Below are positions 1,326 to 13,188 of a stretch of DNA of 44,750 nt, one piece after another; the stretch's first letter is position 1; every line of letters starts with the position of its first letter. This stretch comes from Candidatus Levyibacteriota bacterium (GTDB lineage: Bacteria > Patescibacteriota > Microgenomatia > Levybacterales > UBA12049). The translations under genes were made by a program, and so were the position numbers. Under the pieces are notes generated by a model. It worked only from the letters and a program-made list of their open reading frames with translations, searched no databases and was not told the DNA's origin. The DNA is taken from NCBI GenBank assembly GCA_016214555.1, contig JACROF010000017.1, forward strand, positions 1-44,750, given 5' to 3'.

Positions 1326-2378
1326 TTACATCATGATATATTTTGCCGCCTTGGTTTTTCCCACCTTCTTAACAATACCTGAGTCTATCAAACTTTTTAA
1401 CTCATTTAAAACAGTGTCCTCAGATACAAAAGGGAAAAGCTGTTTAAAAGCATTATTTTGTAAATAGCCAGTTGCTTGAATATATTCAATAATCTTTAAC
1501 TGCCTCTCGCTTAATAAAAGAGGAGAACCTCCCAATTTTTGCTTTAATTTACCATCAACAGAAATTCTTTCTACCTTTTCTTTAATCTTTTGTAGCTCAA
1601 CAGCCAACGCCTCAAGAAAAAAAAGGAGCCACTCTGTAAGATCCCCATCATTTTTGGCAACGCTCTGAAGTGAAGCGTAGTACTCTGAAGCATGTTTATC
1701 AAAATATTCTTCAAGTGAAAAAAACTGTCTAATATCATATTCTTCCTGATAAAGAATAAGCGTTGATAGACACCTCCCAACTCGTCCATTACCATCAACA
1801 AAAGGATGAATTCTGACAAATTCATAGTGAACGACTCCTGCCTTTAGCAATGGATGAATAGATTGATCTGTAGATTCATTAATAAATGATATAAGCTCTT
1901 CAATCTGCGCTGGCACATCTTTTGCTTCAGGAGGCCGAAATGATACCTCTCCAGTAAAGCTATTCCTAATAACTACTTGGGTGCCTCTTAGTACGCCAGC
2001 CTTTGACTCATCAAGCGTTTTCTCAACTGTCATTTTATGGAGTGTACATATGAGATTGACATCCACCCTCTCTCTTTCTGTTCCTTTATGAAAACTTGTA
2101 ATATACTCCATCACCTTTCGATAGTTGATAACCTCCTGCACATCTCTTTGACGAGCTGTAACGCTCTCTCCTTGTAAAACCTTTTCTGCCTGCAGGAGAT
2201 TAAGTTCATTTCCTTCGATATGAGTTCCATAATGAGCAGCTCTTACCATTGCGTCATCACGAAATTTCTTCTCGTAATAAGGCAAGAGAGGAGCGTGATC
2301 AATAAACTGCTTTGCTGCTTCAATTCGTCCGATGAGGGTTATCATGGGTGTGGTAATCGTATACTTTGGAGAGTACAT
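1326..2378 (-). CDS. Fic family protein (AMP/NMP-transferase fold) with C-terminal winged helix
   Basis: Fic enzymes transfer AMP or a related group onto protein side chains. The catalytic motif HPFVDGNGRVGR is intact. An N-terminal THIEGN motif corresponds to the inhibitory helix (S/T)xxxE(G/N) of class II Fic proteins, but the Ser/Thr position is glycine while the inhibitory glutamate is kept. The last ~65 residues look like a winged helix (ERQLKIIEYIQATG...). I chose the ATG giving MYSPKYTITTPM because family members begin this way; an in-frame ATG at 2438 would add 20 residues. A possible promoter is TTGGTA, 18 bases, TATGCA just upstream. It precedes the ligase by one base. The target is unknown; an antitoxin-like or regulatory role is possible. 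Confidence 0.88.
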   Translation of the reverse strand: MYSPKYTITTPMITLIGRIEAAKQFIDHAPLLPYYEKKFRDDAMVRAAHYGTHIEGNELNLLQAEKVLQGESVTARQRDVQEVINYRKVMEYITSFHKGTERERVDVNLICTLHKMTVEKTLDESKAGVLRGTQVVIRNSFTGEVSFRPPEAKDVPAQIEELISFINESTDQSIHPLLKAGVVHYEFVRIHPFVDGNGRVGRCLSTLILYQEEYDIRQFFSLEEYFDKHASEYYASLQSVAKNDGDLTEWLLFFLEALAVELQKIKEKVERISVDGKLKQKLGGSPLLLSERQLKIIEYIQATGYLQNNAFKQLFPFVSEDTVLNELKSLIDSGIVKKVGKTKAAKYIMM

Positions 2379-2439
2379 AATCAAAGATTCTTGCATAATT
2401 CCCGAATGGTTGCAATACCAAAAATGCTGTAATCCCATA

Positions 2440-8332: not shown

Positions 8333-9262
8333 CTAGAGTAAATCAAGTTGATCCTGAGAGACTGACTTTTTTGACGCTTCTTTTATTTTCAATGGAATTT
8401 TTGCGTCTAATCTTGCAAGTAGACTTTTAAAGCTATGCCTCTCAAAACCCTTTCTGAGATTCTGGAAGTCAAGCTGTGAGACTGAAGCGGCAGCTAGGTC
8501 AAGATGAATAGGAGCATCAACCATAATAGTTGCCAATTTTTTAGCAAGAGCACCTTGCTCTGCATCAGTTGCCAATTTGAGTCCGACTTTCTCTGGAACT
8601 TCGTTTATCCTCTTATAGAGAGACTCAAACGTACCAAACTTTTGGAGAAGATTTGATGCGGTCTTAGGTCCAATACCAGAAATACCTGGATAACCATCTG
8701 ATGGATCGCCTATGAGCGCTTTATAATCAACGAATTGTGAAGGCCTTACACCATATTTTTCCTCAACCATACCCTTATCAAAAAGAGCGGTTTTAGTCAT
8801 ACCTGTTATTGTCATTAACACTTTTGTTCTGTCATCAACCAACTGGAGCATGTCTCGATCTCCCGTAACAATAACGACTTCAATGGTAGGATCTTCCTCT
8901 TTAGCCTCACGAGCAAATGTTCCTATGACATCATCACCTTCATACCCTTCTAAATGAGCAACGAACACATTAAGGTCCTCAAGTAGTTCATCAATAAGAA
9001 TCACTTGATCTGAAAGGTCGCTTGCCATAGGAGGCCTATGCTGGTGGTATCCTGCAAACATACTCTGTCTGATGGTTGGCTTGGATTTGTCAAAACAGAC
9101 GACAATATAGTCTGGGTTTTGCTCCTGGAGTACGCCTAAAAACATAGAGAAGAATCCGTAGACTGCATTAACCACCTGACCGTGACTGTTTGTTAATCCA
9201 GGCATCGCATGATAGGCCCTGTGGAGTAAAGCGCTACCATCTATAAGTACTAACTTTCTCAT
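8333..9262 (-). CDS. stand-alone 5'-3' exonuclease (PolA N-terminal domain type)
   Basis: 309 residues covering only the FEN/5'-nuclease part of DNA polymerase I. The N-terminus VLIDGSALLHRAYHA carries the first metal-binding Asp; YEGDDVIGTFA and VTGDRDMLQLV add the acidic cluster; DYKALIGDPSDGYPGI and SGIGPKTASNLL form the helix-hairpin-helix DNA clamp. No polymerase domain follows. The role would be removing RNA primers and flaps. The start is unusual: a leaderless upstream ATG at 9327 encodes a near-copy of the first eight residues, a palindromic element follows, and this ATG overlaps the stop of that short frame (ATGA). Confidence 0.92.
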   Translation of the reverse strand: MRKLVLIDGSALLHRAYHAMPGLTNSHGQVVNAVYGFFSMFLGVLQEQNPDYIVVCFDKSKPTIRQSMFAGYHQHRPPMASDLSDQVILIDELLEDLNVFVAHLEGYEGDDVIGTFAREAKEEDPTIEVVIVTGDRDMLQLVDDRTKVLMTITGMTKTALFDKGMVEEKYGVRPSQFVDYKALIGDPSDGYPGISGIGPKTASNLLQKFGTFESLYKRINEVPEKVGLKLATDAEQGALAKKLATIMVDAPIHLDLAAASVSQLDFQNLRKGFERHSFKSLLARLDAKIPLKIKEASKKSVSQDQLDLL

Positions 9263-9327
9263 ATAAGCAAACCACTTGCCCCTCGAAGCCTTAGCGAAGT
9301 GGGGTCAATCAAAACGAGCTTACTCAT
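9259..9327 (-). CDS. leader ORF: recoded copy of the exonuclease N-terminus running into a palindromic element
   Basis: A 22-residue frame starting seven bases after a TACAAT box. It begins MSKLVLID, matching MRKLVLID of the exonuclease, but five of the six KLVLID codons differ and all five differences are synonymous. It then reads through the palindromic element (PTSLRLRGASG) and stops at a TGA overlapping the exonuclease ATG. I read it as the ancestral gene start, now a leader peptide, possibly needed for coupled translation of the exonuclease. Confidence 0.6.
   Translation of the reverse strand: MSKLVLIDPTSLRLRGASGLLI
9275..9305 (-). repeat. palindromic element, copy 1
   Basis: On the minus strand it starts ACCCCACTTCGC, continues TAAGGCTTCG and ends AGGGGCAAG. 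CCCC pairs with GGGG around a structured core. It aligns with copy 2 (13113-13144) along its full length with four substitutions and one gap, including a C-G to T-A compensatory pair in the stem. It sits right after codon 8 of the truncated upstream copy of the exonuclease start. Confidence 0.75.
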
Positions 9328-9334
9328 CTTTCCA

Positions 9335-9340
9335 ATTGTA
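9335..9340 (-). promoter_or_regulatory. -10 box, leaderless, exonuclease leader
   Basis: TACAAT, seven bases before the ATG at 9327. The spacing matches the other leaderless promoters in this window and marks 9327 as the original start. Confidence 0.6.
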
Positions 9341-12084: not shown

Positions 12085-12119
12085 TTTTACATTCTTAACT
12101 CTTAATTGTTAATTACTAA
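12085..12119 (-). repeat. degenerate 7-bp tandem array at the trpS stop / mutY 5' region
   Basis: On the minus strand: TTAGTAA, TTAACAA, TTAAGAG, TTAAGAA, TGTAAAA. The first two units encode the last codons and stop of trpS; the last ends six bases before the mutY ATG. Confidence 0.6.
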
Positions 12120-13097
12120 GAAGCCCATTTTTTCTCTTACTTCTTTAATGGTCTGCCTTGCAATTTCTTGGCATTTATTTGCGTGCTCTCTCAGGATGTT
12201 ATCAACAACGTGAGGATTCTCTTCATAGTACTTTCTTTTTTCCTGGAGTGGTCTTAACTCTTGATAAATAACATCGGAAAGCTCTTTCTTCATATCCGCA
12301 TATCTGATTTTTTTGTCTTTATAATCGAGAACATATTTATGGTGCAATTCTTTACCTCCAAGCAGATACATCAAGCTAAATAAAGTTGCAACTCCTCCCT
12401 CTTGTGGAATCTGTCCACCTAGTTGCCCGCTGTCTGTTGGGACTTTTGCAAGCTTTTGCTGTATTGTCTCTAAATCATCAGTTACGTTAATAAAACTACC
12501 CTCAACTGACTTACTCATCTTGCCCTCACCCGTTAATGATGGGATATATTCTCCCTCTGTTGCAAAACGCTTAGGTTCTGGAAAAGTCTCTCCAAACATG
12601 CTATTAAACTTACGAGCAATTTCTCTTGCAACTTCCAAATGAGGCTCCTGATCTATACCAACAGGTACTCGCTCTCCTTTATAAAGAAGGATGTCAGCGG
12701 CCATAAGAACTGGATAATATAAAAGTCCCATATTTACATATTTTGGATGCTGAGCCTTTTTATCTTTATAGGTAGGCAAATCTTCAAGGCGAGAGACAGG
12801 ATAAATTGTACTTAGATAATATGATAATTCTATATGCTCAGGAACAAAAGATTGTACTTCAATCAGACATTTTTCCGGATCAAGTCCTGCTCCAAGATAA
12901 TCAAGAATCACTGTCCTTGTCGCATCTGCAAGCGACGTACTCTCATAGGGGGTCGTGACCGCATGTAAGTCCACGACAGAAAAGACACAGTCATACTCGT
13001 CTTGAAGCTGCAACATGCCCTTGACCGCACCTAGATAATTGCCAAGATGCAATCTCCCAGTAGCACGTATGCCTGAGTAAACTCGTTTTTTATGCAT
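12102..13097 (-). CDS. trpS: tryptophan-tRNA ligase
   Basis: 331 residues, the normal length for bacterial TrpRS, a class I synthetase charging tRNA-Trp. The N-terminus is MHKKRVYSGIRATGRLHLGNYLGA, containing the HIGH-type HLGN; GKMSKS is the second class signature. An AGGAAGG Shine-Dalgarno-like sequence five to six bases before this ATG, inside or next to the palindromic element, supports this start. A second, leaderless ATG at 13176 encodes a near-copy of the first 12 residues, so the gene start appears to have been displaced by the element. Confidence 0.95.
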   Translation of the reverse strand: MHKKRVYSGIRATGRLHLGNYLGAVKGMLQLQDEYDCVFSVVDLHAVTTPYESTSLADATRTVILDYLGAGLDPEKCLIEVQSFVPEHIELSYYLSTIYPVSRLEDLPTYKDKKAQHPKYVNMGLLYYPVLMAADILLYKGERVPVGIDQEPHLEVAREIARKFNSMFGETFPEPKRFATEGEYIPSLTGEGKMSKSVEGSFINVTDDLETIQQKLAKVPTDSGQLGGQIPQEGGVATLFSLMYLLGGKELHHKYVLDYKDKKIRYADMKKELSDVIYQELRPLQEKRKYYEENPHVVDNILREHANKCQEIARQTIKEVREKMGFLVINN

Positions 13098-13176
13098 AGA
13101 TATCCTTCCTGCTTGCCCTTCCGAAGCCTTGGCGAAGGAGGGTAGCTCTAATACCTGAATAAACCTTCTTTTTCAT
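13090..13176 (-). CDS. leader ORF: recoded copy of the TrpS N-terminus running into a palindromic element
   Basis: A 28-residue frame that starts six bases after TACAAT. It begins MKKKVYSGIRAT, matching MHKKRVYSGIRAT of TrpS. Of the eight VYSGIRAT codons five differ, all synonymously. It then reads through the palindromic element (LLRQGFGRASR) and ends at a TAA just inside the trpS coding region. I read it as the ancestral trpS start converted to a leader peptide. Whether it is translated is an inference from the promoter spacing. Confidence 0.62.
   Translation of the reverse strand: MKKKVYSGIRATLLRQGFGRASRKDIYA
13113..13144 (-). repeat. palindromic element, copy 2
   Basis: On the minus strand it starts ACCCTCCTTCGC, continues CAAGGCTTCG and ends GAAGGGCAAG. 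CCCT pairs with AGGG where copy 1 has CCCC with GGGG. The shared core is CTTCGC(T/C)AAGGCTTCG. It separates the truncated upstream copy of the trpS start from the intact gene. Confidence 0.75.
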
Positions 13177-13182
13177 AGCTGT

Positions 13183-13188
13183 ATTGTA
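13183..13188 (-). promoter_or_regulatory. -10 box, leaderless, trpS leader
   Basis: TACAAT, six bases before the ATG at 13176, the same spacing as other leaderless starts here. Confidence 0.6.

Follow-up and report, generated by a model that had tools for sequence, protein, structure and literature searches.

Why should a gene carry the beginning of its coding sequence twice, spelled with different codons and accompanied by a palindrome? This question is raised by a 5'-3' exonuclease gene (exo; PF02739, PF01367; positions 8333..9262, minus strand) in the window, by which we mean the whole stretch of 44,750 nt that was analysed. Its complete start copy is preceded by a short upstream frame, MSKLVLIDPTSLRLRGASGLLI and a stop (9259..9327, minus strand), which opens with an ATG at 9327-9325 and closes with a TGA at 9261-9259; this TGA overlaps the exo ATG at 9262-9260, forming ATGA on the minus strand. 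A -10-like box, TACAAT (9335..9340, minus strand), lies 7 bases ahead of the upstream ATG, which suggests a leaderless start, and in the only congener (G001) a TACAAT likewise stands just before the exo start. The upstream frame begins with an outer remnant of the exo start, codons 1-8, MSKLVLID (9304..9327, minus strand), runs through an imperfect palindromic repeat, CCCACTTCGCTAAGGCTTCGAGGGGCAAG (9275..9303, minus strand), whose fold on its own is weak (z -0.1), and ends with an inner flank reading SGLL where the gene has SALL (9263..9274, minus strand). KLVLID is encoded in both copies, with 5/6 codons and 7/18 bases different, all silently. The first-pass annotation had described this layout of TACAAT, recoded start, palindrome and ATGA overlap, and our reading of the minus strand confirmed it. 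Elsewhere in the window, positions 1326-2438 (minus strand) encode a Fic/DOC family protein (PF02661).

The same layout had been noticed at a second, unrelated gene, and it is evident there too. This is the gene for tryptophanyl-tRNA synthetase, trpS (12102..13097, minus strand), named by its N-terminal motif and its orthologues, whose complete start copy is MHKKRVYSGIRATG and which is 74% identical to trpS of G001. A TACAAT (13183..13188, minus strand) stands ahead of a short upstream frame, MKKKVYSGIRATLLRQGFGRASRKDIYA and a stop (13090..13176, minus strand), which ends 8 bases into the trpS start. The order on the minus strand is MKKKVYSGIRAT, the repeat and MHKKRVYSGIRAT; MKKKVYSGIRAT is the outer remnant of the trpS start (13141..13176, minus strand), the palindromic repeat is CCCTCCTTCGCCAAGGCTTCGGAAGGGCAAG (13112..13142, minus strand), and an inner flank, CAGGAAGGATATCT, with an SD-like AGGAAGG (13098..13111, minus strand), precedes the complete start. 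The exo and trpS arrangements were each absent from about 30 relatives and are therefore regarded as recent.

Chance had been judged an unlikely origin of this layout, and our scans agree with that judgement. When 445 kb (42%) of the genome to which the window belongs was scanned at 560 ORF starts and 569 ORF ends, only exo, trpS and rplA carried a terminal duplication, all at copies of the repeat and with scores of at least 26; the next highest scores were 22 among starts and 23 among ends. At other loci, 1.1 Mb in all, a C-terminal copy scoring at least 25 was found for 4/93 ORFs with a repeat near the stop, against 1/2427 of the other ORFs. Of the few matches away from the repeat that the scan of starts and a later separate sample gave, two were real cases with other palindromes. 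A crude measure of six-frame similarity near repeats gave no separation from random places; such a separation was obtained once the comparison was anchored at start and stop codons.

A scan for more examples, which the first-pass annotation had proposed, proved productive. Repeat-centred scans and scans anchored at gene ends yielded 15 divergent duplications of gene ends at palindromes in several Patescibacteria genomes from separate assemblies. Those at 5' ends concern exo, trpS, uvrB, mutM twice, a glycosyltransferase gene and leuS (fused in frame), the glycosyltransferase gene and the second mutM coming from the later separate sample; those at 3' ends concern rplA, tsaD twice, ychF, a sortase gene, a topA-like gene, rplL and the locus L161. 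In rplA of the window's own genome the arrangement is a mirror image at the stop codon, with AIRLDIASL and AIHLDLASL each closed by a stop. The cases at gene ends, which besides rplA include tsaD, ychF, sortase, topA-like and rplL in other genomes, contradict the initial idea of a device specific to starts. The recoded copy also does not behave as part of one element, as had been supposed, since what is duplicated is in every case the end of that particular gene, and the palindrome is a different one in four cases (mutM L223, tsaD L284, topA-like L422 and rplL L400), where the intervals fold at z -3.0 to -4.5. Both tsaD and mutM were struck in two genomes, by different palindromes. The candidates L432, L165, L169, L217 and L247 were dropped by eye as low-complexity, tandem-repeat or element-coded matches.

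The divergence between the two copies bears on their origin. The 15 pairs cover 147 codons, with 126 identical amino acids, 77 silent codon differences and 21 replacements; about 61-82% of the bases agree and no pair is near-identical. The cases were picked by protein similarity, which biases them toward silent differences, and near-identical duplicates would equally have been caught. Insertion of the repeat or slippage could have duplicated the gene end in tandem, as a long target-site duplication, with the spare copy then drifting, and short, nearly identical direct repeats do lie beside some in-gene insertions, e.g. at L071 and L093. However, a simulation with one functional and one drifting copy for the first 11 cases gave a mean of at most about 17 silent differences and always more replacements than silent differences, against 55 silent and 17 replacement differences observed in the same cases. 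Together with the ratio of 77 silent to 21 replacement differences, this led us to reject target-site duplication followed by drift, and a beginning with identical copies is not supported; there is also no near-identical gene-end duplicate among the 15, so that we regard this origin as highly improbable. The pattern fits copies that each belonged to a functioning gene, in a different lineage, while they diverged, namely orthologues. Codons for identical amino acids are spelled alike between the copies in 49/126 cases (39%), close to the 42-51% that exo and rplA show gene-wide when compared with the only congener, and the recoding, which had appeared special, is therefore attributed to ordinary divergence of species.

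Which copy is native was judged from the codons shared with the congener. At exo, the outer remnant has 4/5 comparable codons in common with G001 and the complete copy 0/5. Over four comparisons the remnant shares 18/37 codons and the complete copy 7/37 (p 0.013). In ychF the relation is reversed, its complete copy and not its remnant resembling the relative, and the pooled counts are then 20/46 and 12/46 (p 0.12). Inside the complete copy of exo, a patch of differing codons covers about the first 15: up to codon 15, 0/13 amino-acid-identical codons match G001, and the next five in a row are identical. Similarly, ten codons of the sortase gene match the congener right before a patch and 2/14 match inside it. 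This suggests a short acquired patch within a native gene at exo and sortase. The opposite assignment, in which the complete copy is native and the outer fragment, bringing promoter, start and repeat, was acquired and set against the native start or stop, would accommodate the complete copies that begin or end nearly exactly at the ORF boundary, as well as the complete ychF copy that is nearer to the relative. It is hard to reconcile with the trpS remnant and promoter, which match the congener at 40/48 bases, with the four congener comparisons, which favour a native remnant, and with the bounded odd patch in the complete copies of exo and sortase; we consider it unlikely.

The repeat had been described as lying between two complete starts, and our first model likewise treated it as a divider between two copies. 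This model was replaced after inspection of L401 and L390 by one in which the repeat lies inside the outer copy and a few gene codons continue after it. At L401, the bases after the repeat, GGTGCAGAACG, carry on the native gene (GAER) ahead of the ATG of the complete copy. In a test of ten cases, the peptide of the inner flank (after the repeat at 5' ends, before it at 3' ends) resembled the adjoining residues of the gene: random sets were as good in 2/20000 trials for the 5' cases (six cases tested jointly, including exo) and in 155/20000 for the 3' cases, with choices in the test made after seeing the data. Among the ten, such homology was not found at trpS, where the inner flank scores -1 against its own gene, or at sortase. 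The complete copy starts at its own start codon in the 5' cases and finishes at its own stop in the 3' cases. From the inner-flank homology, the outer copy would be a gene end into which the repeat is set in frame, and SGLL at exo is probably the native gene resuming after the repeat. Judged by sequence comparison, the outer copy looks native, with the repeat carried in frame.

The leader frames of the 5' cases remain open through the repeat and stop inside the true start, at 4 bases in exo, 8 in trpS, 20 in uvrB and 17 in mutM of L223, and those of the glycosyltransferase gene (+4) and the second mutM (+8) end there likewise. Thus, in 6/6 separate leader frames at 5' ends the stop falls between 4 and 20 bases into the true start, compared with 93/533 (17%) of control upstream ATGs. 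SD-like sequences are found ahead of trpS and both mutM starts. Translational coupling likely follows from where the leader frames end. The stop-start overlap in all six leader frames and the SD-like sequences could also mean that the recoded start copy serves as an upstream frame that regulates translation of the gene. Against such a functional leader, as many cases lie at 3' ends, behind stop codons, relatives do not share the arrangement at exo or trpS, and the genes are unrelated; it seems to us hardly probable at all. The closure of the leader frames on the true start is moreover not expected of an artefact of assembly. Chimeras of related strains or species joined at a repeat come to mind, because every case with a named record is from a metagenome-assembled genome and palindromes are hard to sequence. 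On the other hand, the joints lack a long common word usable by an assembler, and the 15 cases are spread over several separate assemblies, with three of them in one 17-contig genome, so that chimeric assembly is a very unlikely source.

We propose, with about an even chance of being right, that the sites are scars of out-of-register recombination between divergent orthologous alleles at in-gene palindromes of the RPE- or REP-like kind. The outer copy consists of 6-17 gene codons and the repeat (with the native promoter as well at trpS), followed in most cases by a few gene codons on the inner side. The starting state would be a native gene end bearing a small in-frame palindrome. A hairpin-forming repeat near the gene end may then cause a break or stalled copying, and the gene would be restored from a divergent homologous molecule of another lineage, with one joint made by pairing inside the gene and the other made illegitimately, a few codons to the inner side of the repeat. 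Survivors would be those that keep the whole reading frame. At 5' ends, ribosomes that enter at the old start would translate through the repeat as far as a stop on the new start, where they could reinitiate, and the element-bearing end would be left as a leader or trailer. The hairpin is put forward as the cause of the break because a palindrome is present at every site, which is partly a product of how the sites were found. The bounded patch at exo and sortase and the native remnant in the four congener tests may reflect one homologous and one illegitimate joint, but no donor or intermediate genome for the duplications was found. The window's own genome (96% complete) has no match to ComEC (PF03772) or Ku (PF02735), and DNA uptake and end joining are therefore unsupported. 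The weakest point of the recombination model is the position of the joints, which nearly coincide with start and stop codons; recombination by itself would not predict this. A bolder version, which we hold to be doubtful, is that the palindromes actively provoke the capture of a divergent 'rescue' gene end, the hairpin breaking or stalling the DNA and repair from foreign homologues leaving the element behind. If this is true, small palindromes would persist at gene ends and travel with them without transposition, which would amount to a recombination-based life cycle for RPE-like repeats.

The repeat core, CTTCGCYAARGCTTCG, occurs in 7 copies (at most 2 mismatches) in the 1.05 Mb genome of the window and in 57/82 genomes of the order, across which the number of copies ranges from 0 to 49, and the reversed pattern gave almost no matches. 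The pattern is also present in many other Patescibacteria and in some other phyla, including Geomonas, Chryseolinea, Acidobacteria and Rhizobiales (L169, L192, L194, L197, L213 and others). About half of roughly 107 repeat sites fall in frame within long open frames or genes; the repeat itself is thus RPE-like, being widespread and frequently in frame inside genes. With regard to a transposase, the number of repeat copies correlates with the presence of Y1/RAYT genes (rho 0.52, p 7e-7 over 82 genomes), such a gene is present in 22/22 genomes with at least 5 repeat copies, and the window's own genome has two PF01797 (Y1/RAYT) matches. Nevertheless, none of the transposase genes in 20 regions searched (18 flanks shown) was flanked by this repeat; they are bordered by different palindromes, and the link between the repeat and RAYT is therefore indirect.

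RPEs are short palindromic repeats of 105-146 bp (PMC2229807) that occur in many copies, frequently fused in frame within conserved genes, and also in tmRNA genes (PMC2229807; PMC10969869). Our repeat is likewise short, palindromic and dispersed, in frame in unrelated protein genes and near tmRNA, but it has about 30 bases and another sequence, and it fits no described RPE family size. The earlier remark that a recoded start copy is foreign to RPEs holds as far as we searched, as divergent gene-end duplicates were not found in the RPE descriptions; the repeat on its own is nevertheless of that kind. REPs and REPINs are similar in size and palindromy, and a Y1 transposase is found in all 22 genomes with at least five copies of our repeat, which differs in lying mostly inside genes, in few copies, without flanking the sampled transposase genes, and in having no visible GTAG/CGTC end tag of the form given in PMC3733652. 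Homology-facilitated illegitimate recombination, homologous on one side and illegitimate on the other (PMC3240628), is known from competent laboratory bacteria with long DNA, whereas here the patches are short, every site has a palindrome, and ComEC was not found in the window's genome. Fungal mitochondrial atp6 and cob can be followed by an intervening sequence and a second copy of their own C-terminal part (PMC6279837), but these duplications adjoin homing endonuclease ORFs and ours only a palindrome of about 30 bases. The literature on palindromic elements in Patescibacteria gave no match to the pattern of gene-end duplication. Thus, RPEs, REPs and illegitimate recombination are already known, and divergent gene-end duplicates at such repeats seem to be undescribed in the literature searched.

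These loci bear on the persistence and movement of small palindromes inside genes, RPEs among them; a 2007 review stated that movement of RPEs by a transposase was hypothesised without experimental support (PMC2229807). Because the end with the element and an intact, divergent end are both preserved in them, their sequences allow origin, age and direction to be read. They would mark small-scale interspecies exchange in Patescibacteria and a way in which a gene may survive an insertion at its start via translational coupling. Duplicated starts can also give misleading gene starts in annotation.

Several further observations concern insertions and the repeat. Six relatives (G016, G018, G019, G027, G034, G046) carry extra stretches of about 75-180 bases at one place in exo, around residues 121-127, which is perhaps a hot spot for in-frame insertions. 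A dihydrofolate-reductase-like gene has an in-frame repeat at seemingly the same place in two families (L008 1500-1516 on contig 9 of the window's genome, and L074 in G041), followed in both by EIFI(F/I)GG. On contig 13 of the window's genome, the 5' end of tmRNA (RF00023) is preceded, at a distance of about 10 bases, by a variant of the repeat (L010 1490-1516). Finally, unrelated genes at L129 3008 (G004) and L078 1508 (G038) share a nearly identical extended repeat, GGAGTCCATCC..GGGCGAG..GGCCACC, and at L129 outer arms lengthen the palindrome.
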